From contig NZ_FOIC01000030.1 in assembly GCF_900111485.1 (NCBI RefSeq), forward strand, positions 1 through 33,217: a stretch of 33,217 nucleotides of DNA, in the 5' to 3' direction. Made by a program: the position numbers and the translations under genes. The notes beneath the pieces are model-generated. The model worked only from the letters and a program-made list of their open reading frames with translations. It had not been told where the DNA came from and did no database searches. How positions within the stretch are numbered: the first letter of the stretch is position 1; each line of letters opens with the position of its first letter. Of the stretch, positions 1,847-17,946 are shown one piece after another. This DNA is from Natrinema hispanicum (GTDB lineage: Archaea; Halobacteriota; Halobacteria; Halobacteriales; Natrialbaceae).

Positions 1847-2080
1847 ATGCCAAAACAGCAACCAGAGAACACACAGCAAATAGAGATTCCAGCACGGTTA
1901 GTTGAGCGCGTCGAGAGACGGGTTCCACATACTAAGTTCGATGATGCAGGCGAGTACATTGCGTACGTCGTCGAAGAGATACTCGCCCAAGTCGAGGGTC
2001 ACGCTGACGAAAAGTTCGACAACAATAACGATGAGGAGTTGGAGGCGAGGCTCAAGTCGCTTGGATATCTCGAGGACTAA
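1847..2080 (+). CDS. Small ribbon-helix-helix-like protein with LGY tail
   Basis: A 77-residue acidic protein. Residues about 11-50 (QIEIPARLVERVERRV... EYIAYVVEEIL) have the strand-helix-helix layout of CopG/RHH-like small proteins. It ends in ELEARLKSLGYLED, closely matching the extreme C-termini of the phosphodiesterases at 2203-3798 (VEDRLRGLGYIE) and 16354-17946 (VEDRLKGLGYME). It is convergent with the phosphodiesterase, and the stops are about 120 bp apart. RHH-like proteins of this size with such a tail are, from memory, common beside alkaline-phosphatase-superfamily and glycan genes, and their role is not established. It could regulate the locus or be a partner of the tailed enzymes. 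Few basic residues are seen in the presumed DNA-binding strand. Confidence 0.75.
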   Translation: MPKQQPENTQQIEIPARLVERVERRVPHTKFDDAGEYIAYVVEEILAQVEGHADEKFDNNNDEELEARLKSLGYLED

Positions 2081-2202
2081 CCTGTACAACGATTAATAGG
2101 TTTCAACTTCTCCGCAACCGGTTTCCGAGACGCTTGTAGAGTTACCAGCACGTAATTAACAGTGGGATGAAAACACGTCCTTAATTCACCGCTCTGACGG
2201 CG

Positions 2203-3798
2203 TCACTCAATATAGCCGAGGCCACGGAGCCGGTCTTCGACACCGTCGAAGCGCTCGTTGCTATTCTTCTCGACCGACTTTTCTGTGGCCTCGTCTCCAT
2301 ATAGCTGGGTCGTAACAGACTGAGTTTCTTGTGGCGAGTTCGACGCGAAGACGGACTGGAGGACGTGTCCGTCGGCATGTTCTGGAATTGGTTCACCGAC
2401 ATCGTGGAGGACAGTCGGTGCGATGTCGACTACGGATGCATCATCTGGTGCTCCACCAGGAGCAATATCTGGACCCCAGCCGAGAAACACACCTTGTGAT
2501 CGGTGGCCTGCAGCTTTATCACCGGCCGATTCGAAGACGTTATCCGGTAACTTTGCCTTCTGCTCGTATTCGCCACGGCCGACTACGACTAAGTCTGGTG
2601 CGTCCGGATCCGTTGGGAAGAGATCATCACCGTCGTATACATTAAGAACTTGCTCACCAGTCTCTGGATCAGAGGCCTCCATTAGCGTTGCCTCAACATC
2701 CCGTTTGATTGAATCTATCTCGGAAGGCTCTACGATTCCATTGTCGAACCGATCGACGTCATTCACGTAAACGTGGCCAGGCCCGTATGCGAATGCAACT
2801 GTCTCCTTGAAGTCGACGTCGTACAGGCCGTGATCACCAGGAATTCGTTCAGCAACTCCGTTGACAAGCGACTTCGGGAGGTGACGAACGAGCCGATCAT
2901 CCGAAATTCCGATCCTATTTAGCGAATTCATCACCGCCGATTTCGTCACGCCTAGCTTCGCAAGCGATCCGCGCGTCCCGTCGTCGTCTTTTCGAGAGAG
3001 GTACCCGTGGTCGGCGAGCAGGGTGTTGAGATTAACGAACGTTGATATTGGACCGAACCCATGATCTGAGACAATGTAGAGCGATGCATCGTTCTCACTA
3101 GCGTATTGCATCGCGTCACCGACGATCTTGTCAAGCGTCTGGTAATGATCAAGAATAACGTCCTCATCCCAAACAAGGTGTTGGAGACGGTCCGGTGCAG
3201 TGTACACGAAGAAGCAGAGTCGCCAGTCACGGTCTTTGACGAGTTTGTCCATGAGCTGGCGGCGAGCCGCGACGAGGTCGTCGATGTCGTCGATGAATTC
3301 CTCTTGATCGTCCGTGTAGCTGTTCCAATCTAATCCAATCCGGTACTCGGGAATCTCTTGTTCGATCTCTTTTCGGAGGTCTGGTGGATGTGTGAACCCG
3401 TCCTTGATTTCGGGCGTGATCATACCACTGACCATCGCCCCATCGATTTTCTTCGCCGGGTATGTCATTGGGACGTTGCCGACGATGGCTGGACTCAGTA
3501 TGTCCCAGAGAGCGGGCCGGCTGAGGTCGGCGCTGGTATACATTCGACGGCTATATTGCGATTCGAGCGCGTGGAAGGCGTAAATACCGTGTTTGTCAGG
3601 GTTCGTTCCGGTTGCAATTGACGGCCAAGCTAAGGGCGTCGTTGGCGGTGCCGTGCTTCTTAATGGGGCTGCGACACCTTCTTCGAAGATTTGGCCAAAA
3701 TTAGGTAGCTTCCCGGATTCTGTCCATCTCTTAAGCAATTTCCAGGGAACGCCATCAATTCCGAGAATAAACGCCTTTTCTGTAGTGGTGTCAGTCAT
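2203..3798 (-). CDS. Type I phosphodiesterase / nucleotide pyrophosphatase family protein
   Basis: 531 residues, full length for the family. The two-metal site is visible: GIDG with Asp15, nucleophile Thr54 in PPTTPLAWPSIATG (51-64), APDRLQH with Asp203 and His207, VSDHGFGP with Asp245 and His246, and a later GHRSQG His. The family hydrolyses or transfers phosphodiester and pyrophosphate groups, for example on sugar nucleotides or lipid-linked sugars; the substrate here is unknown. No signal peptide or membrane segment is seen, so it probably acts in the cytoplasm. It ends in VEDRLRGLGYIE. The protein at 16354-17946 is a clear paralogue along its whole length, yet this copy has lower GC. The start ATG at 3798 lies 43 bases behind an ATAACAATA box. 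Confidence 0.9.
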   Translation of the reverse strand: MTDTTTEKAFILGIDGVPWKLLKRWTESGKLPNFGQIFEEGVAAPLRSTAPPTTPLAWPSIATGTNPDKHGIYAFHALESQYSRRMYTSADLSRPALWDILSPAIVGNVPMTYPAKKIDGAMVSGMITPEIKDGFTHPPDLRKEIEQEIPEYRIGLDWNSYTDDQEEFIDDIDDLVAARRQLMDKLVKDRDWRLCFFVYTAPDRLQHLVWDEDVILDHYQTLDKIVGDAMQYASENDASLYIVSDHGFGPISTFVNLNTLLADHGYLSRKDDDGTRGSLAKLGVTKSAVMNSLNRIGISDDRLVRHLPKSLVNGVAERIPGDHGLYDVDFKETVAFAYGPGHVYVNDVDRFDNGIVEPSEIDSIKRDVEATLMEASDPETGEQVLNVYDGDDLFPTDPDAPDLVVVGRGEYEQKAKLPDNVFESAGDKAAGHRSQGVFLGWGPDIAPGGAPDDASVVDIAPTVLHDVGEPIPEHADGHVLQSVFASNSPQETQSVTTQLYGDEATEKSVEKNSNERFDGVEDRLRGLGYIE

Positions 3799-4192
3799 AT
3801 TTGGTGTATTAGCTGCTATATCAGGTGTTTCCCTTTCTTGATATTGTTATATACCGCCTGTACTGCTAAAGCAGCGTAGAGTCGCTCTAGTGATTGGTCA
3901 ACTTCACGCATCCGTGTTTTCTTCCCATATGAATCAAAGTAGTAAATATAATATCTTATTTATGGGTTAGTAGAACCAATCGGAAAGGGTGCGTAGGGTT
4001 ACTCTCACAAGCTATCACCACATGTTTCGACGATGGTGACGATAGAACATATGACTGTCAAGCTCGAATATCTTTTATAGAACCGCCCCACAGTTAGGCG
4101 ATTGTATCCGAATCGGTACCTCTCGGTTAATCTCTATACTGGTTCCGTAGTAACAATATAACCAAACTACACAATATCGGATATCAATATGT
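3799..4192. other. AT-rich divergent promoter region (394 bp)
   Basis: Sits between the divergent starts at 3798 (-) and 4193 (+). On the minus strand GGTATATAACAATA (about 3842-3855) is a TATA-like box 43 bases from the phosphodiesterase start. On the plus strand a TATA-like TTTTATAG (about 4073-4080) and GTAACAATA (4150-4158, 34 bases before the ATG) precede the oxidoreductase. No ORF with coding character was seen. Confidence 0.5.
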
Positions 4193-5293
4193 ATGACACT
4201 CGACACAGCTGTCGTTGGTGCTGGTTCGATATCGGGTCTTCATTTAAGCGGCATAAAGAAAAACCCCCTAACAAGCCTTGTTGGGGTCTGTGATGTCGAC
4301 GACCAACTAGTTACGGAGGCTGCAAACGAATACGAAACAAACTCGTACTTGGATATCGATGAGTTGCTTTCTGATCAGTCCCTCGACTGGTTACACGTCT
4401 GTACGCCAGTTCAGACACACCTCGATATCAGTAAGAAAGCGATCAAAGCTGGAGTTCCACTATTGATCGAGAAACCGGTGACCGAGACAGTTGACGAAAT
4501 GGAGACGCTCATGGAGGTCGCTGAGGAGCATGACGTGCCTGTTTCGCCGGTTCATCAGCACCTCTTTCGACCTGCTGTTTTAACAGCGCGCGAGATGATC
4601 GAGTCCGGTGAGCTCGGACGGATTAGAGGTGTTGATCTCGTCTTCACTGGAAACACGTTGCCGGATGAAGTTAATAGAGGATCATGGGTTTTCGATCTCC
4701 CAGGAGGTGAGTTCGAAGAAGGGCTTCCACATCCGATCTATTTACTGCTCGGTCACGGTGGCTATCCGAAGGACGCATCTAATATCTCAGTAACAACAGC
4801 ACTCGCAAATGAATACGATCATACATTCGAATACGATACAGTACAAGTCCAGTACTCGACGGTAGACGACATCGTCTGTAGTGCAACGATGATGGCTGGC
4901 GGTCGACCAAAACGGCTAATCCACGTTCACGGGGAAGAGAAAAGTATCACCATCGATCTGCATTTGCAGATGGTTCAGGTAATCGACTCGGACTATACGC
5001 GCTCACCGCTTACCAAGACTGCACAGGCGTTTCGATACGCTGGTAGCCGTCTTGCTGGCGTTGCACAGAATGCACGTCTCGTTCTTAAGACGCAAATGTC
5101 TGATAACTGGGAGACTGAAAAGACAGGTACATCACATTACGAACAATTTGACCGGACGGCGAAAGCGCTCGAGGTCGGGGCAGAGATGCCTGTTCCACTT
5201 TCTTCTTCACGATGGACGATTCAAATCATGCACGAAATCCGTAAGGCTGCCACATCCCAGTCTAACAAATCTAGTAAATATACTATTCAATAG
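4193..5293 (+). CDS. Gfo/Idh/MocA-family NAD(P)-dependent oxidoreductase
   Basis: 366 residues. The N-terminal Rossmann motif AVVGAGSISGLH (6-17) is followed by the family signature LIEKPVTETV (EKP at 93-95) and the sugar-binding C-terminal domain, with a GHGGYP segment in the middle. Members oxidise or reduce a hydroxyl of a sugar or sugar nucleotide. The substrate cannot be read from sequence. Start: ATG at 4193 is preferred; an in-context ATG at 4189 is in another frame. It is followed after 53 bp by the flippase gene on the same strand, so the two probably form one transcript. Base composition is lower in GC than the oxidoreductases at 19449 and 27651, which suggests separate origin. Confidence 0.9.
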   Translation: MTLDTAVVGAGSISGLHLSGIKKNPLTSLVGVCDVDDQLVTEAANEYETNSYLDIDELLSDQSLDWLHVCTPVQTHLDISKKAIKAGVPLLIEKPVTETVDEMETLMEVAEEHDVPVSPVHQHLFRPAVLTAREMIESGELGRIRGVDLVFTGNTLPDEVNRGSWVFDLPGGEFEEGLPHPIYLLLGHGGYPKDASNISVTTALANEYDHTFEYDTVQVQYSTVDDIVCSATMMAGGRPKRLIHVHGEEKSITIDLHLQMVQVIDSDYTRSPLTKTAQAFRYAGSRLAGVAQNARLVLKTQMSDNWETEKTGTSHYEQFDRTAKALEVGAEMPVPLSSSRWTIQIMHEIRKAATSQSNKSSKYTIQ

Positions 5294-5346
5294 AAGAATG
5301 TAGGGTGATAGTAACTCTCGAACACAATGCAGAGTACACAATCTAA

Positions 5347-6804
5347 ATGAATGAACGATCGTTCCTAAGCGGCTTCCGAGCATCGCTCATCGCACAATTA
5401 ACTCGAATTGCTGTCAACGGTCTTATTATAATCATGATGACAAGATACTTCTTTTCCCCCCAAGAGTATGGATTACTCTTCCTCGCCGTTTCGATATTCG
5501 GCTCGGCGCTGCTGTTTAGCAGTATTGGGGTCCCAAAGTCTGCAGCACGATATGTGACTGAATATAAAGAAACAGCACCCGGGCAGGTTCGTAATGTTGT
5601 TCGAACCTCGTTCAAGGTGGTTCTAGTTATGAGTCTTGCCGTCGGCTCTATCGTCCTGTTATTCCGGAACGTAATCGCTGTGGCATTCAGCGAACCTGCA
5701 CTTGGACCACTATTGGCTGTCGGATTATTTTATATCGTGTTTCAGTCCATCAACACCTATCTGACGACGCTCTTTCAGGGTTTTAATCATATTACCAGAA
5801 GCGCTATACTGACGATCTGTTCCAACGTTGGCATCTTATGTGGCATTTTACTGCTCGTCAGAGTAGGACTCGGGCCGATCGGTGCCTTGACCGGCTATGT
5901 AATCGGGTACGGACTGGGATCCCTCGTTGGATTGGGGTTTCTCTATTGGACGCTTAGAGAGTACGAGGAACGTCCGATTGAATCCGGATTACGGCGCCGA
6001 CTTTTTGAGTACAGCGTACCACTGATGGCGACGAATGGTGCAAATATCTTATATAAGCGTGTCGACACCCTACTTATAGGTTTCTTTTTGACACCCATCG
6101 CTGTCGGTTATTACACGCTTGCGAAACAATTCTCTGACTTCATTATTGCGCCCGCTGATTCGTTCGGCTTCACTATCTCACCGGCCTTTGGAGAACACAA
6201 GGCGAACAACGGGAGCCACCAAGCGGCACGCATCTACGAGATGGCGTTCGAACACACGATACTATTTTATATTCCTGCGGCAACCGGACTCGTACTCGTT
6301 GCCGAGCCCACTATCCAGTTCATCTTCGGTGCCGATTACTTGGGTGCCGTTCCAGTCATCCGGGTATTTGCTGCGTTTATTGTGTTACAGGCAATCGACA
6401 AAATCACGAACGATGGTCTCGACTACCTTGGTCGTGCCCGACAGCGAGCGATCGTCAAAACAGGTACCGGCGTGTTCAACTTCTCTTTGAATCTCTTCTT
6501 GATTCCGGTGATCGGCGTTGTCGGTGCAGCCATTTCAACGGTCCTGAGCTACAGTATAATGGTTGCCCTCAATGTCTACCTGATTCATACCGAATTGTCG
6601 CTAGCACTCTCTCGACTCGCTCGCTCGGCTGCTCTGGTCGGTGTTATTACTGTCTGCATGGCAGCTTTTGTCGTCATGCTCTTACCCTTTGTCTCGAGTC
6701 TTGTGACGTTACTCGCTGTTGTTTTTGCTGGTGGGTGCATATGGGGGTGTCTTGCATTTGCCAGTGGCATTCCAGAGCAGAACCTCGGGGCGGTGTTCTC
6801 GTAG
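5347..6804 (+). CDS. Polysaccharide / lipid-linked oligosaccharide flippase, MOP superfamily (Wzx/RfbX-like)
   Basis: 485 residues, almost wholly membrane-embedded, with about 12-14 hydrophobic helices. The N-terminus (LSGFRASLIAQLTRIAVNG) and segments such as SPQEYGLLFLAVSIFGS and the GVPKSAARYVTEY loop are characteristic of MOP-type polysaccharide transporters. The C-terminal half has LNLFLIPVIGVVGAAISTVLSY, also typical. Such proteins flip lipid-linked glycan units across the cytoplasmic membrane; the haloarchaeal AglR involved in N-glycosylation belongs to the same broad group. It is the only flippase in the window, so it is the likely exporter for the whole locus. It follows the oxidoreductase by 53 bp. 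Confidence 0.9.
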   Translation: MNERSFLSGFRASLIAQLTRIAVNGLIIIMMTRYFFSPQEYGLLFLAVSIFGSALLFSSIGVPKSAARYVTEYKETAPGQVRNVVRTSFKVVLVMSLAVGSIVLLFRNVIAVAFSEPALGPLLAVGLFYIVFQSINTYLTTLFQGFNHITRSAILTICSNVGILCGILLLVRVGLGPIGALTGYVIGYGLGSLVGLGFLYWTLREYEERPIESGLRRRLFEYSVPLMATNGANILYKRVDTLLIGFFLTPIAVGYYTLAKQFSDFIIAPADSFGFTISPAFGEHKANNGSHQAARIYEMAFEHTILFYIPAATGLVLVAEPTIQFIFGADYLGAVPVIRVFAAFIVLQAIDKITNDGLDYLGRARQRAIVKTGTGVFNFSLNLFLIPVIGVVGAAISTVLSYSIMVALNVYLIHTELSLALSRLARSAALVGVITVCMAAFVVMLLPFVSSLVTLLAVVFAGGCIWGCLAFASGIPEQNLGAVFS

Positions 6805-7002
6805 TCGTTGCAGGCCGAGCGTCTACTAATTTGGTTCGATTGCACATCGCGACTTCAACCGCTCAAGCAGCGTAGTTTGGACGATGTAGGACCCGCCGTG
6901 TTATTGCAATTGGCGGTTGTACTCCCCAATTTCGAGAACAGTCGTTGAAATCGGATAAAACGAATAGTCAGCGGGACTGCTGGGAATATCGTGCGCTCAA
7001 AA

Positions 7003-8565
7003 CTACCTGTCGGTCTCCGCGAAGTTGTCTGGGTCGACCACCACGCCGTTGACACGAACGGTCGCATCGCCGTCGATACTTAGCTGTTCGATTTCGCCGT
7101 CGAACCGCCAAGCGTCGAGGTAGTTGGCGACGACACCCTTTGCGCCGACGCCATCGACGGAGGCTTGGGGGTCAATCGTCGCACCCTCGTCAGTACTCGG
7201 CTCGACGGCCTCGCTGACGACGAACTCGTAGTCCGTCGTTGACGTACTTGCTTCTCGACCGTCGAAGACAACCACGTTCGGTAGCTTTTTATTGTCTTCA
7301 CTGCCGACATCTACAAAGTCATCTGGATCAACCTCCACACCGTTGACACGGACTGCCGCGTCGCCGTCGACACTTAGCTGTTCGATTTCGCCGTCGAACC
7401 GCCAGGCATCGAGGTAGTTCGCGACGACACCCTTTGCGTTAATGCCATCGACGGAGGCTTGAGGGTCGATCGTCGCATCCTCGTCAGTGCTCGGCTCGAC
7501 AGCCTCACTGACGACGAACTCGTAGTCCGTCGTCGGCGTACTTGCCTCTCGTCCATCGAAGATGACGACGTTGTTAAGGGACGCGTTTTTCTTAGCGGAG
7601 GCCGTTTTCTCTTCGGTGGTCTCTGAGTTTGAACTGGTGCCAGCGGCTGCCTCCTCAGCCGTTGTCGGACATCCTTCTGGAATTCGATGAACCGGTTCTC
7701 CAGCCGAAGAGCCGATCAGTTCGCCGCCCCGTCTGGTCCGTACTGCTCCCTCATCAAATCGGGTATTCGTGACGGTGAGTTCGGTATTGCTCCCGCTCTT
7801 CCACGTTCCCGATCCGATATTCAGGTGCTGTCGGCCATCGGCAGGACCAATATCGCAGTCGATCAGTTCGCCACTGTAATAGAACTGCCAGTAGCCTTTG
7901 TGATAATTATTCCAGAGAACACAATTCTTTGCGTAGCTCCCGTCCGTCCCCAATCGAAGGTTAGATGTCTTATTGTTCGCTGAATACGTATCATGAACGC
8001 GGACGATACCGTTCGATCCAGGGTTAGGATGATCGCTTGAATTACCCGCCTGAGAACCATAGATGGCGTTATCTGGGAACTCTTGGATGTTACACCTATA
8101 GATGTCGAGCTCACCAGCATGATACCAGTACGTCCAGATACCCGCGGGGTTGTCGTTCGGTCTCCAGGTATCAATGTTCTTAACGCCGTCACCGAGATAT
8201 ACCGTGTCGATGGTACCTGTCGCGTTCTCATTTGGTACGGCGACCCGGAATGGTTGGTTGTTCGGGATGTGATCCCATTCCCCTTTAATACCGATATTTC
8301 GAATCTCCCAGTCATTCCCATCGGCAACGATTTCGTATCCTGCACCTTTACTGCTAATATCAATTAAGACGTTTTCAAAGGTCTCGTTGTCCCCAATCCT
8401 AACTCTATGTGTATCACCTGGTGCAACCTTGACGACGTCAAAATCTCCCGAAGTTGCAGAGACACCGCCAACTGCAGCCAATCCAACGCTACTGAACGCT
8501 GCTTTGAGATACGACCGCCGATTGAGACTGTCAATGAATGGTTTATTTCTGGACTCGTTGGTCAT
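7003..8565 (-). CDS. Tat-exported right-handed beta-helix protein with duplicated C-terminal module
   Basis: 520 residues from the ATG at 8565. An upstream in-frame ATG at 8622 is unlikely because a consensus TATA box (TTTAAA, 8622-8627) overlaps it. The N-terminus has a twin-arginine signal, NRRSYLKAAF (15-24), a hydrophobic stretch and VSATSG, so export by Tat is likely. Residues about 45-300 are rich in short beta-strand turns with N, G and D, like pectate-lyase-type beta-helix surface proteins. A low-complexity Ser/Thr/Glu linker follows. The end consists of two near-identical modules (332-419 and 430-517) of a type that recurs in haloarchaeal secreted proteins (TDYEFVVSEAVE... YLDAWRFDGEIEQL... 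VRVNGVEVDPD). It may bind or cut a polysaccharide; no catalytic residues can be assigned. Confidence 0.82.
   Translation of the reverse strand: MTNESRNKPFIDSLNRRSYLKAAFSSVGLAAVGGVSATSGDFDVVKVAPGDTHRVRIGDNETFENVLIDISSKGAGYEIVADGNDWEIRNIGIKGEWDHIPNNQPFRVAVPNENATGTIDTVYLGDGVKNIDTWRPNDNPAGIWTYWYHAGELDIYRCNIQEFPDNAIYGSQAGNSSDHPNPGSNGIVRVHDTYSANNKTSNLRLGTDGSYAKNCVLWNNYHKGYWQFYYSGELIDCDIGPADGRQHLNIGSGTWKSGSNTELTVTNTRFDEGAVRTRRGGELIGSSAGEPVHRIPEGCPTTAEEAAAGTSSNSETTEEKTASAKKNASLNNVVIFDGREASTPTTDYEFVVSEAVEPSTDEDATIDPQASVDGINAKGVVANYLDAWRFDGEIEQLSVDGDAAVRVNGVEVDPDDFVDVGSEDNKKLPNVVVFDGREASTSTTDYEFVVSEAVEPSTDEGATIDPQASVDGVGAKGVVANYLDAWRFDGEIEQLSIDGDATVRVNGVVVDPDNFAETDR
7015..7572 (-). repeat. Tandem in-frame duplication inside the beta-helix protein gene
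   Basis: Two copies, 7309-7572 and 7015-7278, with a 294-bp period (98 codons). Protein copies differ at only a handful of positions (for example DEDATIDPQ versus DEGATIDPQ, and NGVEVDPDD versus NGVVVDPDN). DNA copies are also close, which points to a fairly recent duplication. Confidence 0.9.
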
Positions 8566-8620
8566 TCCAGTTCGTAGGAAGTAGATAATAGAGGTGAGTG
8601 TTTGCGTGAACATGATTTCC

Positions 8621-8627
8621 ATTTAAA
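8621..8627 (-). promoter_or_regulatory. TATA box of the beta-helix protein gene
   Basis: TTTAAAT on the minus strand matches the haloarchaeal TATA consensus TTTAWA. It lies about 57 bases before the ATG at 8565, so transcription would begin near 8600. It overlaps the alternative ATG at 8622 and therefore argues against that start. Confidence 0.55.
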
Positions 8628-9019
8628 CGAGATAGTCATCTAATTGCTGAAATTACAGTTAAGCAACTCAGTGAATGTGATGGCCGAACATTTCAGAGGG
8701 CCCTCGGCCGTGGTGTTCCGAAAGCCGTGTTGGCGTAGAATTCTCTAGTCACCGTTATGTGCTCTTACAACCGTGACGTCTGTTCTACCTTGGGCCAGAT
8801 CTGTTTTTCACCAACTGCGACACGATCCAGTCCAGCAGTGAAGTCTTGTCCGTAATCGTCAGGGTGAACCGTACCAGTATTGGATAGTGTCGCTCGGGTT
8901 CGACTAGCACCGAATTACTCACACGGATTGTAACATTCAGAGGGTGTCATAGAACGCTTGTCATGATCGGTTCGGGGAGAGTGATGCTGATTGAGTGCCG
9001 AAATAGTGTCCGAAACGGG

Positions 9020-9200
9020 TGCGACTCTTCACAGAGATCGCTATACAGAACGTATATGTGTTATTCTCTGACGCTTTTTCTCATGAGCAAATTCTTGAGG
9101 TTAGACCTAGCCCATCACTTTTCAAGACGCTATTGGCTCTCCCAGGATCCACAATTTGCCAACCACTCGTACGAGACGGGAAAGAAATTCGTTCATATGT
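9020..9200 (+). pseudogene. Possible decayed sulfotransferase fragment
   Basis: Two overlapping frames carry pieces that resemble the C-terminal part of sulfotransferases: SLYRTYMCYS in one frame, then FSDAFSHEQILEVR and LFKTLLALPG in the next. In that family the order is an LY-x-Q-like helix, then F-x-x-EQILVLRSEDL, then a FLGLP-like segment. Joining them needs at least one frameshift, and the SED motif is degraded. This is a weak, by-eye resemblance. Confidence 0.25.
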
Positions 9201-9259: not shown

Positions 9260-10738
9260 ATGGCTGAACGACAACCAAACATATTCATGCTGACAGTCGA
9301 TTCACTCCGTGCAGATGTCTACCAGGAGCTGATGGAGGATGTCACTAAGACTATTCGTGGTGTCGAATTCACAACGGCATTCGCAACAGCGAGTAATACT
9401 GGGAGCTCTATGCCGACGCTCGCTGCAGGCGTTTTTTGTGATCGAGTCGCGAATGGAGAACCGAACCTCAAACTCGGAGAGACGTCTGGCAAGGACGAAC
9501 TTACGACGATGGCAGAATCCCTTTCAGACGCCGGATATGACTGTTCACTCTGGAGTGACAACGTCATCTTCGGATCAGAACGGAACTACGATCGCGGATT
9601 CGATGATGGGCGGGCTGGAACTCCAAACTGGAAAAAACGGGCCCAAAAGATAATTCAACGAACTGGATCTGACCGCTTGTTCAATGTGTGTCGATGGGCT
9701 TACTTCAACGTTCTCGGTCGTATCGAAGAGAAAGTAATATCTGACAATAACTATTATATCTCCGCAAACACCTACCATAAGGCAGTTCTTGACTCCCTCG
9801 AGCAGGCGTCCGGCGGGCAGATGCATTGGATACACTATATGGACGTCCATCATCCATTTGAGCCGCCGACTGAGTACCTCGAAACTCGATCGTTGCACAC
9901 TGATCGGACTTCTTCCGAACTCGCGGAACTCTCTTCCCAGGCAATCATCCAAAATCGGGGCAAGGGAATGACCGACGAGGATATCGACGATATTGAGCAA
10001 GCGTATCTCGCTGCTTGTGAACACCTGCGGGACCAACTCGTTTCCTTTATCGAGACGCTCATCGATCGTGATCACTACGTGCCCGGTCACGACGTGATCG
10101 TTCTGACTGCAGACCACGGAGAAGGATTCGACCGCGACCGACACGGGATGCTCGGTCATACCCCGACACCAGCGTTTTGGGACGATTTAGTCCATGTTCC
10201 ACTTGTCGTCGGTCATCCGGAGTGGGAGGAAGGTACCATTGACTGTCAAGTCAGCCAGATCGACCTCGTGCCGACGATCCTCCGAGCCGTCGATGTATCG
10301 GTTCCGCCATCGGTTGATGGGCAAGCTACTGCTCTACCGACCGAGCTGTGTCGTGAGCACGTCTATTTCACAGCGACTGGTCCGTATAGAACATACCATG
10401 GCATTCGAAGTAACACCGGGTGGAAGCTCTTTTCGGACCGAATCAGCGATTCAGAATCGATTGAACTGACCGGCTCCGACGATGACCAAGCCAAGCAGGA
10501 TCACGAGCGTATCTTATTAACTACTGCTGGCAAGTCAACAGAGACGATTAGATTCGAGTGCCAGCTTGACGACAAGACACGACCGACCGACGGCGATGAG
10601 CGAGAGAAATGGCGAATACTGCGCCAACAACTCTGTGATACGAAAGGTGAGGTTGCGACTAGACGTTTCGATGCTATGTTATCTGACGAAACGGTGGCTC
10701 AACTCGAGCAACTCGGATATGTCGATAATATCCGCTGA
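9260..10738 (+). CDS. Sulfatase-family (alkaline phosphatase superfamily) protein with LGY tail
   Basis: 492 residues. Metal and catalytic motifs: TVDSLRAD (12-19), SNTGSSMPTLAAG (45-57) with Thr47 in the nucleophile region, LTADHGEGF (282-290) and MLGHTPTPAF (297-306) with His300. As in the gene at 349-1608, the C/S-x-P-x-R sulfatase signature is absent and Thr occupies the equivalent place. True sulfatase activity, which needs a formylglycine made from Cys or Ser, is therefore doubtful. The C-terminus VAQLEQLGYVDNIR carries the LGY tail. No signal peptide. It stands alone on the plus strand and is convergent with the acyltransferase gene at 10924. It marks the right end of the lower-GC block. 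Confidence 0.87.
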   Translation: MAERQPNIFMLTVDSLRADVYQELMEDVTKTIRGVEFTTAFATASNTGSSMPTLAAGVFCDRVANGEPNLKLGETSGKDELTTMAESLSDAGYDCSLWSDNVIFGSERNYDRGFDDGRAGTPNWKKRAQKIIQRTGSDRLFNVCRWAYFNVLGRIEEKVISDNNYYISANTYHKAVLDSLEQASGGQMHWIHYMDVHHPFEPPTEYLETRSLHTDRTSSELAELSSQAIIQNRGKGMTDEDIDDIEQAYLAACEHLRDQLVSFIETLIDRDHYVPGHDVIVLTADHGEGFDRDRHGMLGHTPTPAFWDDLVHVPLVVGHPEWEEGTIDCQVSQIDLVPTILRAVDVSVPPSVDGQATALPTELCREHVYFTATGPYRTYHGIRSNTGWKLFSDRISDSESIELTGSDDDQAKQDHERILLTTAGKSTETIRFECQLDDKTRPTDGDEREKWRILRQQLCDTKGEVATRRFDAMLSDETVAQLEQLGYVDNIR

Positions 10739-10923
10739 CGATTTCGGAAGGGCGAGCTTAGTAGGGCAATTCGGTAGACGGTGTATCAACTGACTCTATT
10801 GTGAGCGGAAGGGGAGAGTAAAAACGTCAAGCATATAAGGAGATTCGCCCGTGAGCCATGCAGTAGGCACCCTGTTCTGTCTTCAGAGTACGGTTGACAG
10901 AATCTGTTCGCGTGTAACTCCTA

Positions 10924-11946
10924 TTACCCCTTGCTCAGCGATCCGGCTAACTTCTGATACGTCGACTTCGCGAGTTGCATCTCGAGCCCCGACGACTCGA
11001 CGACATAATACTGGCGGAGATCGCTGTTGAACTTGGCCTTGTACGCACAGAGCCGTTCAGTGTTCGCACCGACGAGGTCGTAGCCAGTCACCGAGTCGAG
11101 TTCCGGATCGGTAAGGATGTCTTCGATGATGGCCCGGTGAAGCAGGCTGTTGACGCTCACACCGTCGTACGAGGCGGTGACGCCGCCCTGCCAGAAGTAC
11201 GCGAGATCGGGGCTATACAGCGTGATAATGCCGCTTTTGTACTGGCCATCGGACGTTCGCGCGACGTAGACGCGCCACAGCTCGTCGGGAAGCGACGAAA
11301 GGAGGTCACGGAGGAACGACCGTGAGATCGGAACCGGATCGTCGTATTCGCGGTACTGGTCGGCGACGTCCTCGTAGATCCGGAGCGCCGATGAGATCCC
11401 TTCGGTTTCGATCGAGAGATCCAGGTCGTCGAACTGTCGCATTTCACGCCGGAGGCTCTTGCTGAATCCGTCCATGACGTTCTCGAGAGTTGTCGATTCC
11501 AAATCGACGACGTACGTGAACCGGGGCTCAAGAGAGAAATCGTTCCAGCGGAACGGTCGCGGATCGGTATACTCGAGCGGACACGTCATCCGGAAGAGCG
11601 TCGTTCGGTCGTCGACGTCGGCAGTGTCGAGCACGGCCTCGGCGAGTTCGCGGTTGATTCGCTCTCGCTTGCGCCGCTTCGGACTGTTGGGGGTGATGAT
11701 CGGTCCAAGTCGCGGTACGCTCATCGACACCGGGGGTGAGAGAACCGTTCGGCCAACCGCTCTCTCGGTGACGAACACCGGCAACAACCCGACTGTTTGC
11801 TGTCCCTTGTATGCGCCGTACAGTTGTAACTCTGCACTCGTGTAGTCTGCGAGTACGGAGAGCGCAGCCGGTTCATGAAACACTTCGTATCCGGATGCCG
11901 GCAGTGCATCGCGCCACTCTTCGAGGTCGATACGCTTGACGTTCAT
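10924..11946 (-). CDS. FemAB/BioF2-like GNAT-fold acyltransferase
   Basis: 340 residues from ATG 11946 (MNVKRIDLEEWRDAL). A longer frame reaches 12165, but the trimmed start is preferred. An ATAACAAGG box lies 27 bases upstream of it and a GGAG ribosome-binding site just before it, and the extra residues look non-coding. The layout is that of peptidoglycan-bridge/FemAB-like or Acetyltransf_6 (BioF2-like) proteins. The N-terminal half contains LYGAYKGQQTVGLLPVFV, and the C-terminal GNAT domain contains VYVARTSDGQYKSGIITLY and YDLVGANTERLCAYKAKFN. In polysaccharide loci such proteins transfer acyl or aminoacyl groups to glycan sugars; donor and acceptor are unknown. It is divergent from the DUF354 gene at 12213. 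Confidence 0.8.
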   Translation of the reverse strand: MNVKRIDLEEWRDALPASGYEVFHEPAALSVLADYTSAELQLYGAYKGQQTVGLLPVFVTERAVGRTVLSPPVSMSVPRLGPIITPNSPKRRKRERINRELAEAVLDTADVDDRTTLFRMTCPLEYTDPRPFRWNDFSLEPRFTYVVDLESTTLENVMDGFSKSLRREMRQFDDLDLSIETEGISSALRIYEDVADQYREYDDPVPISRSFLRDLLSSLPDELWRVYVARTSDGQYKSGIITLYSPDLAYFWQGGVTASYDGVSVNSLLHRAIIEDILTDPELDSVTGYDLVGANTERLCAYKAKFNSDLRQYYVVESSGLEMQLAKSTYQKLAGSLSKG

Positions 11947-11973
11947 CCTGCTCCATCGTGTTCCCACAAGTGA

Positions 11974-11982
11974 CCTTGTTAT
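11974..11982 (-). promoter_or_regulatory. ATAACAAAG-like element before the acyltransferase gene
   Basis: ATAACAAGG, one mismatch, 27 bases before the ATG at 11946. It forms a divergent pair with the copy at 12159-12167. Confidence 0.45.
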
Positions 11983-12158
11983 GAGCGCTGTAATCCGCTG
12001 ATGAGGGTCGTCACGACTGACAGAAGCGATCTCGCCGAACGTGTCGTGCGTTCGTGTTTCGATGACAGGGAGGGGTATGTCTTCGCTACTGACTAGTGCT
12101 GCCGACGTGTGATTCCGCACGATCGGCTTGTTCGACGGCAGGTGTCGGTACGAACGAG

Positions 12159-12167
12159 ATAACAAAC
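12159..12167 (+). promoter_or_regulatory. ATAACAAA element before the first DUF354 gene
   Basis: ATAACAAAC, 45 bases before the ATG at 12213. It lies inside the frame that would be translated if the upstream start at 12096 were used, which argues for the trimmed start. Confidence 0.5.
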
Positions 12168-12212
12168 AGCGAGAATTGTCTATCGTCGATTCAGAGTAGG
12201 GTGGCTTTCAAC

Positions 12213-13331
12213 ATGAGATATCTGTTTTTCACGAACACGCCGGCACACGTACATCTGTACAAACACGCCGTCCAGACGCTTCAGGACCGTGGACACGAGG
12301 TACTCGTCCTTGCTCGAGACTACACCTGCACTATCGAGTTGCTCGAGTGGTACGACCTCCCCTACGAGGTCTATGGCTACTGTGATACGTCCAAAAGCTC
12401 ACTGCTGAGTCGCCTCCCGATCCACTACGTGCGTGCCATCCGGCATGCCAGACGGCTCGATCCGGATCTCGTGTTCGGGATGGGCGGCTACGCGGCACAC
12501 ACCGGTGCGGTACTCCGAGCACCGACGGTCTTGCTCATCGATTCCGAACCGGCGTCGTTCGACCACTCGATTTCGACGCCGTTCGCGCATGCCATTCTCA
12601 CGCCCGAGACGTTCCGGAAAGAACTGGGTGAGAATCACTACGTGTTCTCCGGATTCAAAGAATGTGCGTATCTCCATCCGGAAGTCTACGAACCAAATCC
12701 CTCGATTCGAGATCGACTCGACCTCGATGACGACGAACCGTACGCGATCCTTCGACTCAATGCGTTCGGCTCGCAACACGATGTCGGCAAGAACGGGATC
12801 ACGAGCGGGCAGTGTCGCCGTCTCATCGACCGTCTCAGTGACGAGGCGACGATCCTCGTCTCCGACGAAGGCGACGACGTTGACCTCGAGGGACTGCCAG
12901 CGCGACCGTTCGATCTCCACCCGGCCCTGATGCACGATGCACTCGCCGAAGCAACGTTGCTGGTCGCCGATACGCAGACGATGGTCACCGAAGCTGCGCT
13001 CCTTGGGACGCCAGCGATTCGGTCGAACTCGTTCGTCGGTGAGTCGGATATGGGCAATTTCCTGGAACTCGAGGACGAAGGGCTGATTCACAACGTGGCT
13101 CGATTCGACGACGTGCTCGACCTGTCGACGACGCTGCTTCGTGACGAGAGCGTCGACGAAACGTGGCAGCGACGACGAAACGTCTACCTTGCGGATAAAG
13201 TAAATCTCACCGAGGTCATTGTCGATGCTGCGATCGCACATGGCGATGTCGGGACGCTCGAGGCGATCCATCAGTTCGATTCCCCGCGCCGGTCCGAATC
13301 GAAACCACAGATCGGTGTCGGCAGCGATTGA
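12213..13331 (+). CDS. DUF354 family protein, GT-B glycosyltransferase-like (copy 1)
   Basis: 372 residues. DUF354 proteins share the two-Rossmann GT-B fold of nucleotide-sugar glycosyltransferases and UDP-GlcNAc 2-epimerases. Visible blocks: MRYLFFTNTPAHVHLYKH at the N-terminus, DPDLVFGMGGYAAHTGAVL, FSGFKECAYLHP, LRLNAFGSQHDVG, and LLVADTQTMVTEAALLGTPAIR, where family members contact the nucleotide. The start at 12213 is chosen because a paralogue (23703-24803) begins at the same point and an ATAACAAAC box lies 45 bases upstream. Reaction and sugar are not known. The stop is immediately followed by a 76-bp palindromic repeat. It is divergent from the acyltransferase gene. Confidence 0.85.
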   Translation: MRYLFFTNTPAHVHLYKHAVQTLQDRGHEVLVLARDYTCTIELLEWYDLPYEVYGYCDTSKSSLLSRLPIHYVRAIRHARRLDPDLVFGMGGYAAHTGAVLRAPTVLLIDSEPASFDHSISTPFAHAILTPETFRKELGENHYVFSGFKECAYLHPEVYEPNPSIRDRLDLDDDEPYAILRLNAFGSQHDVGKNGITSGQCRRLIDRLSDEATILVSDEGDDVDLEGLPARPFDLHPALMHDALAEATLLVADTQTMVTEAALLGTPAIRSNSFVGESDMGNFLELEDEGLIHNVARFDDVLDLSTTLLRDESVDETWQRRRNVYLADKVNLTEVIVDAAIAHGDVGTLEAIHQFDSPRRSESKPQIGVGSD

Positions 13332-13332
13332 T

Positions 13333-13408
13333 ACGGTCTGCTGTCACGAGTTCCCGGTGGGCCCGCAGGGCGGTCGCGGCCGGCCGACACTGACTGACAG
13401 GAGTCCGT
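13333..13408 (+). repeat. 76-bp palindromic intergenic repeat, copy 1
   Basis: Bounded by imperfect inverted ends ACGGTCTGCTGTCA and TGACAGGAGTCCGT. It starts 2 bp after the DUF354 stop codon. The reverse complement matches 19208-19283 over the full 76 bp, with roughly 85% identity by eye. No target duplication is evident here. Such an element could be a MITE-like mobile repeat or a structured 3' end. Confidence 0.8.
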
Positions 13409-13485
13409 ATGGCTGATCTCGGTCGCGACGACACTCACAATCGAAGAGAAACCGGCTTGCTGCGGACTGTCTTCTCCGTCTCGAG

Positions 13486-14550
13486 TTACACGCGTCGGCT
13501 GTTCGGTCGCTGTTCGCTCGAATCGGAGCGATTCGCCTTTGACCGATGGCAGTGGTCGGTCCCGTCGCGCTCGAGGTCCTCGTAGAGCGCTCGAGGCGGT
13601 CCGATCCACGCGCCGAGGTCGGATGCCCGCTCGATGAGCCACTGATACAAACGCCGGTAGCCGGGGAACTCGCGTTCGTTAAAGTATCGCGGGTGCCAGA
13701 GGACAGTCATAACAGCGCCGTTGTCTGCGGCTTCCTGCAGGAGTCGCTCGCAGGTCTCGCGGGCGGCCTCGAAGTTAGACGCCGGATCCGGAAGCGCTTG
13801 CTCCATGATCGTCAGTGGAAAGACGAGAAAGTCGTCGCCGAAGGGGCGAATCGGCTGATACCCAGCGTGGAAGCCACAGTCCGTACTCGAGCCGAGCGTC
13901 GCATCGTACGCGAGGCCGATCGCGCGGTGGTACTGCCACGTCTCCGGCACCGAGAGCTGCAGGTAGTGTTGGCGACCGCCGGTGACGGGGCCGCCGAGGA
14001 CGTCCTCGAGCACGCTCTTTTCCTCGCGTAACCGCTCGACATCGGTCGGGGAGTGATACGAGCCGTGCAGGCCGACTTCCCAGCCGCCGTCGTCTATGTT
14101 GTGGATGACGTCGACGATCTCGGATGCGGTCACGTCGTATCGACCGAGGTGCTGGACCCAGTTTGCCGGTGAGAACCACTCCTCGATCGGGCGATCTGTT
14201 AGCAGGTGTTGCTCGTTCAGGAAGTAAAACGCCGAGCGAACATCCAGATCGTCCTCGAGGGCCATGATCTCCTCGAACTGCCAGTAGGGGTTGGCCGACG
14301 AGAGTGCGGTCCGCAGATGATACGCTGGTCGCTCTCGAGTCGCGTAGTAGAACGATCGAGCCCCCTTGTACGGCCGGTCGACGTCGTGTGTCAGACAGAG
14401 CGCGAACGTCGCATCGTCCGGAAGCGAACCCCGAGCTCGCGGCAGGTCGTCGATGAACTCGGCTGTCGAAGCGGGCAGTGCATACGAGCGAGCAAGCGTC
14501 TCTGTGGCCCTCGAGTCGGCGTTCGATCGTCGGTCGGTCGTGTCGCGCAT
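13486..14550 (-). CDS. Polysaccharide deacetylase family protein (NodB-like)
   Basis: 354 residues from ATG 14550 (MRDTTDRRS). The frame is open to 14802, but the upstream part is Arg/Ser-rich antisense of the epimerase gene and is rejected. Motifs of the NodB/CE4 fold: LCLTHDVDRPY (motif 1 with the metal-binding Asp), GLHGSYHSP (motif 2, H-x-x-x-H), and a late VLWHPRYF His. Such enzymes remove N- or O-acetyl groups from amino sugars or glycans with a divalent metal. The epimerase stop TGA is followed after one base by this ATG, so the two are co-transcribed and probably translationally coupled. No signal peptide, so a cytoplasmic intermediate may be the substrate. Confidence 0.87.
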   Translation of the reverse strand: MRDTTDRRSNADSRATETLARSYALPASTAEFIDDLPRARGSLPDDATFALCLTHDVDRPYKGARSFYYATRERPAYHLRTALSSANPYWQFEEIMALEDDLDVRSAFYFLNEQHLLTDRPIEEWFSPANWVQHLGRYDVTASEIVDVIHNIDDGGWEVGLHGSYHSPTDVERLREEKSVLEDVLGGPVTGGRQHYLQLSVPETWQYHRAIGLAYDATLGSSTDCGFHAGYQPIRPFGDDFLVFPLTIMEQALPDPASNFEAARETCERLLQEAADNGAVMTVLWHPRYFNEREFPGYRRLYQWLIERASDLGAWIGPPRALYEDLERDGTDHCHRSKANRSDSSEQRPNSRRV

Positions 14551-14551
14551 C

Positions 14552-15607
14552 TCAGCGAACGCTCCGCTCGAGTTGCTCGACGATGCGAGCGGCTGCGTTC
14601 CCGTTGCCGTAGAGTTCCGGCTTGGCCGGTGGATCGACGGCAGCGCGAACCGCATCGACGATTTCGCTCGTCTCTGCGCCGACGAGGGTGTTCCAGCCAG
14701 CGTCGACCGTTTCGATCCATTCGGTCGTCTCCCGGAGGGTGACACACGGCGTATCGAGGTAGAACGCCTCCTTTTGGACGCCGCCGGAGTCCGTCGCAAC
14801 ACAGACTGCGTCCTCGACGAGCGTGATGAACTGCCCGTAGGTGACGGGGTCGATAACGCGAGCCGCCTCCGTTGCTCGGTCCCAGAGTCCGTACTCCTGG
14901 AGTGCTGTCACCGTCCGCGGGTGCGCGGGGAAGACAACTGGGACGTGCAACTGCGAGAAGGCATCGATGATCGACTCGAGTCTGTCCCGATCGTCCGTGT
15001 TTTTCGCCCGGTGGACGGTTGCAAGCACGTATTCGTCGGGAACGTCGAGTTCGGTCTCGGTGCCGTGAAGCCGGTCGCTGATCTGTATCAGCGTATCGTA
15101 CATGACGTCACCGGAGACGAACACGTTCTCCGAAATCCCCTCCTGTGCGAGGGTTTCCTTTGCGTGCTGGCCGGGCGCGAAGAGGATATCCGAACAGTGA
15201 TCGGTCAGGCGGCGGTTGACCTCTTCAGGCATCGACCAGTCGTACGAGCGCAAGCCAGCTTCGACGTGTGCGAGCTGGGTCGACGATTTCGCTGCGACGA
15301 GGGCGGCTGCGAGCGTCGAATTGGTATCCCCGTAGACGAGGACGACGTCGGGCGATTCGTCGTCGATGATCCGTTCGAGCTCGAGCATCATTTCGGCGGT
15401 CTGCGTGGCGTGGGAATCGGAGCCGACGCCGAGGTGGAACGCCGGCTCGGGCAACGCGAGCTCCTCGAAGAACACCTCGGAGAGTTCCGGATCGTAGTGT
15501 TGGCCGGTGTGAACGAGGAGTTCGTCGTGGGTATCTCGAAGCTGCTGTGAGACGGCAGCTGCCTTGACGAACTGCGGCCGTGCACCGACGACCGACAGAA
15601 CGTTCAT
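14552..15607 (-). CDS. wecB: UDP-N-acetylglucosamine 2-epimerase (non-hydrolysing), WecB/WbpI type
   Basis: 351 residues, the usual length. Clear family blocks: SVVGARPQFVKAAAVSQ at the N-terminus, HTGQHYD, LVYGDTNSTLAAALVA, HVEAGLRSYDWSMPEEVNR, FVSGDVMYDT, TVHRAKNTD, PAHPRT and ATDSGGVQKEAFYL. It interconverts C2 epimers of UDP-GlcNAc-type sugars. Given the wbp-like operon at 26167-30462, the closest functional parallel may be WbpI, which epimerises UDP-2,3-diacetamido-glucuronic acid to the manno form. Plain UDP-ManNAc production is the alternative. The ATG at 15607 has a good ribosome-binding site (GAGGTGATC, 7 bases upstream). The next gene begins one base after its stop. Confidence 0.93.
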   Translation of the reverse strand: MNVLSVVGARPQFVKAAAVSQQLRDTHDELLVHTGQHYDPELSEVFFEELALPEPAFHLGVGSDSHATQTAEMMLELERIIDDESPDVVLVYGDTNSTLAAALVAAKSSTQLAHVEAGLRSYDWSMPEEVNRRLTDHCSDILFAPGQHAKETLAQEGISENVFVSGDVMYDTLIQISDRLHGTETELDVPDEYVLATVHRAKNTDDRDRLESIIDAFSQLHVPVVFPAHPRTVTALQEYGLWDRATEAARVIDPVTYGQFITLVEDAVCVATDSGGVQKEAFYLDTPCVTLRETTEWIETVDAGWNTLVGAETSEIVDAVRAAVDPPAKPELYGNGNAAARIVEQLERSVR

Positions 15608-15785
15608 CAAACGATCACCTCGTCCGGGGGTGTACCTGCAAGCTGGATCATAGTCTGGTGAAACTGTGTCTCGAGTGACACAGACGTGGTGTTAGTAAAT
15701 AATCGCGTAACCGAGTTTCAGCTTTCACTGTCACTCTGGCGGCTCGAAACGACGATGGCCGACGGACGAGACGGACAAAGAGATA

Positions 15786-16025
15786 CTACGGCTGTCGGAA
15801 AATCGGGTCAACGTGGCGTTTCGCCGACTCGCGACGCGTCGTCGATCGAGACGAATCGCGAGCCGACACCACATCGGTTTGATCGAACTGTACGGCCGTG
15901 GACGTCTCGGGGCCGTCTGCCGCTTGGCTGGTGTGCGAGGAGAACACGCTGGAGCCGAGCAGGGCGAGGACGCCGAGCACGACGCTTGCGATCCCGAACA
16001 GAGCTTTGTAGACGTTCATTGGCAT
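15786..16025 (-). CDS. Hypothetical small membrane protein
   Basis: About 79 residues from ATG 16025 (MPMNVYKALFG). One strong hydrophobic helix (GIASVVLGVLALLGSSVF, about 10-28) is followed by a polar, Ser- and acid-rich tail. The last 25 residues are Arg/Ser-rich and less like coding sequence. The topology suggests a single-pass membrane protein with a small external domain. No family is recognised. It could be a chance ORF. Confidence 0.4.
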   Translation of the reverse strand: MPMNVYKALFGIASVVLGVLALLGSSVFSSHTSQAADGPETSTAVQFDQTDVVSARDSSRSTTRRESAKRHVDPIFRQP

Positions 16026-16353
16026 CACGCTGGGTGAGTACACGCTCGAAAGCGCCACCACGAATTGGTTCTCGTCGGCCGCGTTCGACCGGGGTGGCGT
16101 CTCGGCATGTATACGAAATCCTGTCTTCCCGACGATGCTTAATTATACAATCGCTTATATTCGATACCGATCACTTGATGGGCCATAGCAGCGTCCTACG
16201 TTCGGTAGCAGCATGCTACGCTGCTGTGTCGTCAACTCGATAGACGGTGGTGCTGTCTTCAAAAACGGCGGACCCCAGTCAGCACACCTGTGACGGCGTT
16301 TCGATCGCCGCCCCGTATTACTCGCTGCAGGAATCGCTCTTGTGGCGAGACCG
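16026..16353. other. 328-bp gap between two minus-strand genes
   Basis: No supported gene. A T-run following GC-rich sequence (minus strand CCGCCGTTTTTG, near 16260-16272) may end transcription of the phosphodiesterase. Around 16196-16225 there are overlapping, mutually exclusive short hairpins (CTAC/GTAG, GTAGC/GCTAC, AGCAGC/GCTGCT). An AT-rich stretch at 16144-16160 (minus strand TATAAGCGATTGTATA) could be a promoter for the small membrane protein, but is about 120 bp away. Confidence 0.4.
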
Positions 16354-17946
16354 TTACTCCATATAGCCGAGGCCCTTCAGCCGGTCCTCGACGTCGTCGA
16401 AGTCCTCGTCGACGTCTCCACCGGTATCAACCTGGGCGACAGCCGAGCGCTCGACTTTCGTCGTCGCAGGTGACGTCTCCGCGGCAAATGCGTCGAACAA
16501 CACTCTGCCGTCGGCGTTTTTCGGCACCGGTTCGCCGATCCCGTGTAGCAGGGTCGGTGCGATATCGACCACGCGTGCCCCGCGAAGCGTCGCGCCAGCG
16601 TCGATCGACGGCCCACGACACAACACGATCCCCTCGCTGCGGTGGCTCGCATCGTAGACGCCGGTGTCGCCGAGTACCTCGTCGGAGACCGTACTGCGTG
16701 ACTCGTAGGTTTCTCTCCCACAGACGACCAGGTCGGGGGCGTCCTCGTCGGTCGGGAATAGCTCGTCGCCGTCGAAGACCTCGAGCAACGGCGTGCCCTC
16801 GGCGTCGGTCGCTGACTCCAGGGCTGCTTTAATATCTGCTTTCACTCGTGGGACTTCGCTCGGCGAGACGATGCCGCCCTCGAAGCGGTCGCTGTCGTTG
16901 ATATAGCAGTTCCCAGTGTCGTGGACGAACGCGACGGTGCGGTCGAAGTCGACGTCGTAGAGCGCGTGATCGCCGGGGATCTGTGCAGCCACCGAGTCGA
17001 CCAGCTGCCGGGGCAGCGACTGGACGAGCGTCTTTTCGGTGATCCCGACGCGACTGAGTGCGCTCGTGATCGCATCCCGGGAGATGCCGAGGCTCGCGAG
17101 TGCGCCGCGGGTCCCGTCGTCTTCGCGCCGGAACAGATAGCCCTCGTTCTCGAGAATCCGGTTGACGTAGACGAGCTGATCGATTGGACCGAACCCGTGA
17201 TCGGAGACGACGTAGAGGTCCGCATCGTGGTCGTCGGTGTACGCCATGACTTCGCCGAGGATTTCGTCGAGTTGCTTGTAGTGTTCTAACAGCCGGTCCA
17301 TGTCCCAGATGAGATGCTGGAACCGGTCGGGAGCGGTGTAGACGAAGAAAAACAGCTGCCAGTCGTCGCCGGCCCGCTCCATCTGGAGGCGCATTAGTTC
17401 GCGGCGTTTCGCGAGCATGTCGTCGACGGCGACTTCGAAGTCGTCTAACCGATCGCCGTATTTGTGGTAGTCGAGGCTGATCTCGTAGTCCGGAATCCGG
17501 GATTCGATCTCGTCTTGCAGATCCGGTGGCCGCGTGAACTCTCGATCCGTCGAGGGGGTCATCATGCCCGTAACCATGGTGCCGTCGATCTCGCGGGCTG
17601 GATACGTCATCGGGACGTTCCCGACGTGGGATGGCCCGAGCAGATCCCACAGCGCTGGCTGTGCGAGGTCGTGGCTCGTGTACATCTCGTGGCTGTATTC
17701 CGACGAGAGGTTTTGAAAGCCGTAGATGCCGTGTTTGTCCGGCCAGACCCCCGTTGCGATCGACGGCCACGCGAGTGGCGTCGTCGGCGGACGAGTGCTC
17801 TCGAGCGTGCCCGATGCGCCCTCCTCGCGCATCCGGGCGATGTTCGGGAGTTCACCCTCGTCGCTCCATTGCTCGATGAGTCTCCACGGCACGCCGTCGA
17901 GTCCGAGCACGAACGCTCGCTCGGAGGGGGCTGTAGATCCGCTCAT
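16354..17946 (-). CDS. Type I phosphodiesterase / nucleotide pyrophosphatase family protein (copy 2)
   Basis: 530 residues from ATG 17946 (MSGSTAPSERAFVLGLDG). The ORF is open to 18060, but an ATAACAAAG box at 18003-18011 lies inside that extension and the paralogue starts at the same place. The catalytic set is intact: GLDG (Asp17), PPTTPLAWPSIATG (nucleophile Thr56), APDRFQH, VSDHGFGP and SHRSEG. It aligns end to end with the protein at 2203-3798, including the closing VEDRLKGLGYME. Base composition is much higher in GC than in that copy. The pair may have entered by separate routes rather than by local duplication. Substrate unknown; a phosphodiester or diphosphate of the glycan pathway is inferred. 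Confidence 0.9.
   Translation of the reverse strand: MSGSTAPSERAFVLGLDGVPWRLIEQWSDEGELPNIARMREEGASGTLESTRPPTTPLAWPSIATGVWPDKHGIYGFQNLSSEYSHEMYTSHDLAQPALWDLLGPSHVGNVPMTYPAREIDGTMVTGMMTPSTDREFTRPPDLQDEIESRIPDYEISLDYHKYGDRLDDFEVAVDDMLAKRRELMRLQMERAGDDWQLFFFVYTAPDRFQHLIWDMDRLLEHYKQLDEILGEVMAYTDDHDADLYVVSDHGFGPIDQLVYVNRILENEGYLFRREDDGTRGALASLGISRDAITSALSRVGITEKTLVQSLPRQLVDSVAAQIPGDHALYDVDFDRTVAFVHDTGNCYINDSDRFEGGIVSPSEVPRVKADIKAALESATDAEGTPLLEVFDGDELFPTDEDAPDLVVCGRETYESRSTVSDEVLGDTGVYDASHRSEGIVLCRGPSIDAGATLRGARVVDIAPTLLHGIGEPVPKNADGRVLFDAFAAETSPATTKVERSAVAQVDTGGDVDEDFDDVEDRLKGLGYME

Follow-up and report, generated by a model that had tools for sequence, protein, structure and literature searches.

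A C-terminal LGY tail shared by AP-superfamily enzymes, CysD-type proteins and small RHH-like proteins as a candidate docking tag

A short peptide with the core LxxLGY is shared by unrelated proteins in Natrinema hispanicum and in other archaea and bacteria. It is anchored at the C-terminus, restricted to a few protein families and added on to their folds, and a small stand-alone protein that carries it is genetically linked to enzymes of the alkaline-phosphatase (AP) superfamily. We consider it about an even call that this LGY tail is a docking tag assembling enzymes of sulfate activation with enzymes of sulfuryl or phosphoryl transfer, because a peptide on a flexible linker is common to unrelated enzymes of one theme and because a carrier of the same peptide is encoded beside untagged enzymes. 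The first-pass annotation of this DNA had proposed a docking or targeting signal; its picture of a shared, C-terminal, non-catalytic tail stood, and docking itself is what we infer from these properties.

The window, which is the whole 33,217-nucleotide stretch of N. hispanicum DNA analyzed here, contains four LGY tails, and ORF translations bore out all four as they had been described. The stand-alone carrier is a 77-amino-acid (aa) ribbon-helix-helix (RHH)-like protein of the RHH-A type (positions 1847–2080, forward strand), recognized from its ORF, family alignments, an RHH-B profile match and an AF2 model. It ends in DEELEARLKSLGYLED, and this tail (2030–2077, forward strand) is supported by an alignment of 46 relatives and by a helix at residues 59–72 of the model. 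Its divergent neighbor (349–1608, reverse strand) is an AP-superfamily "sulfatase-like" enzyme of the S1 subfamily (PF00884) that has no tail; the formylglycine (FGly) motif CxPxR is absent from this enzyme, which has ATLDSMPVIFSG there. Convergent with the carrier is a tailed phosphodiesterase, an NPP-type AP enzyme of 531 aa (2203–3798, reverse strand; PF01663, E = 1e-41) that ends in GVEDRLRGLGYIE and whose tail, ERFDGVEDRLRGLGYIE (2206–2256, reverse strand), matched a genome-wide tail profile with E = 6.6e-6. Another tailed NPP-type phosphodiesterase (16354–17946, reverse strand, in an ORF open to 18060; PF01663, E = 9.9e-43) has the C-terminal end DVEDRLKGLGYME, and its tail, EDFDDVEDRLKGLGYME (16357–16407, reverse strand), was the best match to the profile (E = 8.4e-7). 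The remaining tailed protein is a sulfatase-fold AP enzyme of 492 aa (9260–10738, forward strand; PF00884) with the C-terminal end TVAQLEQLGYVDNIR, in which SNTGSSMPTLAAG replaces the formylglycine motif CxPxR and the tail, SDETVAQLEQLGYVDNIR, lies at 10682–10735 (forward strand; profile E = 0.0024). The tailed window enzymes do belong to different fold branches by Pfam, as the annotation had stated, with two in PF01663 (144–147 bits against a cut-off of 23) and the protein at 9260 in PF00884. At the window edge, an ORF at 14–304 contains CxxC pairs and resembles the end of an IS200/605-type TnpB gene. Three FemAB-like acetyltransferase-type genes of this genome lie close to LGY-tailed phosphodiesterases, one in the window (10924–12165, PF13480) and two elsewhere whose products are similar by sequence (L099:2556-3566 and L100:6244-7254).

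To define the distribution of the tail, a profile of 17 positions was searched against the whole window genome (92 contigs). It gave 16 matches at E ≤ 0.14, every one of them ending 0–3 residues before the stop codon, and 11 of the 16 lay outside the set that had built the profile. These matches comprised 13 AP-superfamily enzymes, one PF01507 CysD-like protein of the PAPS-reductase fold, which ends in GRAQDKEDLMERLRDLGYM (ERLRDLGYM), and two RHH-like small proteins, of types A and B. The AP enzymes fall in PF01663, in PF00884 and in a "WDVLVLLDACRVDL" subtype that is unassigned by Pfam and was placed by its motifs. Seven weaker matches (E > 0.14) were internal in five cases and near the C-terminus but without the LGY core in two. 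Within this genome, the matches at E ≤ 0.14 were confined to the AP, CysD-like and RHH-like families.

Anchoring was equally clear in a larger sample. With the residue directly before GY set as L, M or I, the core LxxLGY occurred 199 times in 20,201 distinct ORFs (1.96 Mb), a sample enriched for the tail in that its loci were picked for tail-bearing genes. The core was followed by 1–5 residues before the stop in 151 of the 199 occurrences, by 6–12 in none and by 13–50 in 7, and the other 41 lay deeper. Among 3,551 ORFs in 20 control haloarchaeal stretches of 20 kb, none ended in the tail. Its occurrence is far above chance. The consensus from 221 distinct tails is [DE]x(2)[DE][VIL]x(2)[RK]L[RK]xLGY[LMI]x(0-4), and the residues just upstream are rich in E and D. 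No description of an LGY motif was found in the open-access literature searched, a result that covers that literature alone.

We then considered how the tail relates to the folds that carry it. An AF2 model of the enzyme at 16354, which rests on a shallow alignment of 8 sequences, had a pTM of 0.77 with much of the core confident; the linker at residues 493–518 had a pLDDT below 50 and the tail helix at 517–525 one of about 45. The core is an NPP fold, with NPP structures as the top matches in a PDB fold search; when the phosphodiesterase sequence was searched against the PDB, no match was obtained. Residues D17, T56, D207, H211, D249, H250 and H435, which are likely metal or nucleophile positions, are invariant in the phosphodiesterase alignment. 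Related phosphodiesterases of about 460 aa, the best-scoring PF01663 matches in haloarchaea, end where the AP fold usually does and are untailed (0 of 22), and nearly all fetched members of the 530–580-aa type carry the tail. Because a low-confidence linker precedes the tail, related phosphodiesterases end before it and unrelated families share it, sequence and model together indicate that it is an add-on and not integral to the AP fold; the same three observations agree with the proposal that it is not catalytic.

The active sites of the tailed enzymes also bear on their function. The nucleophile motif of type I sulfatases, CxPxR or SxPxR, is missing from all 14 sulfatase-fold proteins with a tail that were inspected, and Thr/Ser motifs such as PWTLPVHASLFTG are found instead, so these proteins are unlikely to be classical type I sulfatases. 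As the active sites of the tailed AP enzymes are of NPP or Thr type, their substrates may be phosphate rather than sulfate compounds. Several AP enzymes without LGY in Dehalococcoidia and Methanoperedens-type loci were seen to end in other short basic tails, such as KELKSPGDIS, IIQLRKSGRL and IRGLKSLKKI (L066:15664-19793, L062:369-4348 and L067:946-4062), which may represent another tag of the C-terminus.

In the AF2 model of the 77-aa carrier, an RHH-like region (about residues 10–53) is followed by a low-confidence linker (about 55–58) and the tail helix. Alignment of the 46 relatives left just R68, L69, L72, G73 and Y74 without variation, making the tail the best-conserved part of the family. 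Neither this protein nor four A-type relatives matched PF01402 (RHH_1) in Pfam, and the RHH-B sister family did match, at 21.5–24.2 bits against a cut-off of 20.5. As RHH-A and RHH-B are homologous even without the tail (hhalign probability 98), the label "RHH-like" given in the first-pass annotation holds through this profile kinship and not through a Pfam match of the protein itself. The strand positions of RHH-A are variable (A, T, Q or S at position 11 and E, F, K or A at position 13), whereas the aligned RHH-B proteins have invariant T and K there. Because these DNA-reading positions vary in the A type and are fixed in the aligned B type, RHH-A is unlikely to be a DNA binder of the typical sort. 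A contig search with the single 77-aa sequence found no match, and a search with the family alignment found relatives. A PDB search with the RHH alignment gave no significant match, and Foldseek gave none with the monomer model, as would be expected if the RHH strand forms only in the dimer. Phage records held no protein related to the carrier. Two haloarchaeal plasmid records did hold one, annotated as hypothetical in both, with sulfatase or sulfatase-like genes nearby. LGY-tailed RHH-B (L097:9219-9428 and relatives) is widespread in haloarchaea, and at least three of the genomes checked encode it next to a GT2-like, dolichol-phosphate-type glycosyltransferase.

The small protein proved to be strongly linked to the superfamily of the tailed enzymes, as the annotation had proposed, and the opposite outcome, small proteins with no tie to these enzymes, was not what we observed. 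An AP enzyme was present in 31 of 35 RHH-A or RHH-C loci versus 0 of 20 control stretches (p = 2e-11, a value that overstates independence, since the control stretches were selected by their position, from the same genomes or similar ones, and the RHH loci include some that are related to each other). According to lists compiled by hand from search outputs for 146 genomes, 22 of the 23 genomes that have S1 also have RHH-A, compared with 3 of the 123 that lack S1. RHH-B, with an AP enzyme in 2 of 6 loci, shows no clear link to this superfamily. Some loci are tightly packed: in L328 a tailed AP gene is followed in a row by RHH-A and by an S1 gene without a tail, with the RHH-A stop overlapping the S1 start by a few bases, and a stop–start overlap likewise joins RHH-C to the gene of a tail-less phosphodiesterase in L194.

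Of 26 AP enzymes encoded no more than 600 bases from a separate LGY protein, 25 have no tail; the sole exception is the convergent phosphodiesterase of the window. Among those farther away, 56 were tailed and 34 were not, although nearly all of these 34 share a locus with a carrier and the sample was picked for tails or carriers. The contrast between a tail in cis and a carrier in trans is suggestive only. Some AP enzymes have neither a tail nor a carrier next to them; C54 and C62 of the window genome were cited as such, and C54, one more sulfatase-fold protein, was also noted later as tailed. Since the divergent S1 enzymes form one subfamily, a single event may account for the missing tail in all of them. 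The first-pass annotation had suggested that the small protein competes for the same partner as the enzymes. Since the AP enzymes beside it are usually without a tail, supply of the tag in trans fits better.

We also examined which other genes carry or accompany the tail. Of 30 sampled haloarchaeal PF01507 loci, 27 were tailed, and the three tail-less ones included two of CysH type (ECGLH end) and one other. Bacteria and ANME/Methanoperedens archaea contain the tailed set as well. ANME, Methanoperedens, Dehalococcoidia (Chloroflexi) and relatives have RHH-B, RHH-A, a TauE-like transporter, CysD, CysN and a short phosphodiesterase clustered together, and the CysD of these loci ends in MQKLRALGYM. 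The Methanoperedens protein (L071) is a CysD, with 358 bits against the NCBIfam PRK05253 cut-off of 195; the CysD-like proteins of the window genome and of G151, a Deferribacteres-labelled MAG, scored 82 and 87 bits, below that cut-off, and on these scores they are PF01507 members not assigned as CysD. The tailed set of G151 comprises RHH-like and CysD-like proteins, several phosphodiesterases and a sulfotransferase. There, the tailed sulfotransferase gene is followed 14 bases on by APS kinase, and the CysD-like LGYM gene is followed directly by a tail-less NPP enzyme. The CysD-like tailed protein was found repeatedly in relatives of G151, sometimes with an NPP neighbor. Tailed sulfotransferases were found in two related bacterial genomes, G151 and G165; a general link of the tail with PF13469 sulfotransferases was rejected, as all others inspected in the same genomes were without it. 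In four haloarchaeal genomes (G004, G009, G021 and G025), a tail-less 460-aa NPP-type gene was seen less than about 2 kb from a CysD-like LGYM gene, a layout resembling the bacterial pairs. Taking CysD, CysN, APS kinase, sulfotransferase, the TauE-type transporter and AP enzymes together, the theme of the tag is best read as sulfate activation and transfer.

Three other explanations have to be weighed against docking. The 77-aa protein could be an ordinary RHH transcriptional regulator acting on the sulfatase-like gene that diverges from it, with a tail that serves as a dimer or effector-sensing element and whose likeness to the enzyme tails is secondary. The divergent regulator-target layout of many haloarchaeal loci fits this, as does the PF01402 match of RHH-B above the cut-off, with conserved VTIKIPRELY strand residues. 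We nevertheless think it unlikely: no A-type protein tested matches PF01402, its two outward strand positions are variable, the tail is better conserved than the strand, operon and overlapping layouts also occur, and the regulator reading does not account for the tails of the enzymes.

The tail could also be an intrinsic structural element, a packing helix or a means of homo-oligomerization, that each family reached independently. Canonical CysD (1ZUN) has a related end, which would make the tail a part of the CysD family, and the phosphodiesterase model from 8 sequences is compatible with packing. With the same peptide shared by four or more unrelated families, a low-confidence linker before it and related phosphodiesterases ending ahead of it, we regard this as quite unlikely. 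A role as a C-terminal degron, or as a protease or proteasome docking signal that sets a joint enzyme lifetime, seems very improbable to us. The strict anchoring 1–5 residues from the end speaks for such a signal, but 1–5 residues follow the Tyr, and the residue before it is Gly in all 221 distinct tails. The tail is therefore not the proteasome-docking motif HbYX (hydrophobic residue, penultimate Tyr, any last residue), which none of the 221 fits. A degron would also leave the family restriction and the linkage with CysD, CysN, APS kinase and AP enzymes unexplained. HbYX, PDZ-type and degron readings were all set aside because the distance from the Tyr to the end varies.

If the tail is instead a docking tag, it would form a short amphipathic helix on a flexible acidic linker. 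It would be carried in cis by CysD-type sulfate-activating proteins, by AP enzymes of haloarchaeal glycan clusters (most of the 530–580-aa NPP type and many with the sulfatase fold) and, in rare cases, by a classical sulfotransferase; the RHH-like protein would supply it in trans to untagged AP enzymes such as the divergent S1 neighbor in the window. The tail would bind a common putative receptor, which may be the AP domain, the complex that activates sulfate or some protein beyond those seen in this analysis, and this binding could channel activated sulfate, with the tailed AP enzymes acting as glycan sulfotransferases. APS formation is thermodynamically very unfavorable, and channeling would help. 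More tentatively, and with considerable doubt, we suggest that LGY may define a hitherto unrecognized sulfation metabolon of archaea and bacteria, in which CysD-type activation is tethered to AP glycan sulfotransferases and RHH-derived proteins that do not bind DNA plug the tag in. Such a metabolon, if true, would suggest how AP-fold sulfotransferases receive activated sulfate. The tag could flag candidate parts of sulfation pathways in genomes by their last 15 residues, it is a directly testable candidate for enzyme assembly, and it gives RHH-like "hypothetical proteins" a proposed job besides DNA binding.

Several known systems resemble parts of this arrangement. AP-superfamily "sulfatase-like" proteins were identified by genetics in 2025 as N-glycan sulfotransferases of Halobacterium salinarum, deletion and expression in Hfx. 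volcanii having shown that they sulfate the N-glycan (PMC11980604); the portion of that account drawn on here identifies neither their sulfate donor nor their partners. The enzymes concerned, Agl30 and Agl31 (VNG1056C and VNG1057C), are like the tailed AP enzymes in superfamily, in sulfatase annotation and in their place in a haloarchaeal glycan cluster, and that same portion, unlike the LGY set, describes no C-terminal tag or small carrier (PMC11980604). NPP/ENPP enzymes (PF01663) share the core fold and conserved active-site positions with the tailed phosphodiesterases, which differ in adding an acidic linker and LGY tail, often 35–50 residues, after the usual end of the fold; a literature search on PAPS hydrolysis by NPP enzymes found nothing informative. 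In CysDN ATP sulfurylase, Pseudomonas syringae CysD (1ZUN) has a related ...EEKKRQGY near its C-terminus but no LxxLGY core, unlike the CysD of ANME, Methanoperedens and Chloroflexi, and we are not aware of any CysD-like tail borne by a stand-alone carrier. CopG/RHH antitoxins and regulators (PF01402), of which RHH-B is a member, likewise combine a short RHH domain with a C-terminal interaction segment, but the A-type proteins are without the conserved DNA-reading strand residues, their C-terminal segment is the enzyme tag, and no toxin gene was seen. Encapsulin cargo-loading peptides and similar tags place one short C-terminal peptide on unrelated enzymes, as LGY does. The cargo peptides differ in sequence, LGY has in addition a stand-alone carrier protein, and among the gene neighborhoods listed no encapsulin shell gene was noticed. 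A shared C-terminal docking tag is of a known kind, whereas the LGY tag, its set of families and its stand-alone carrier appear to be new.
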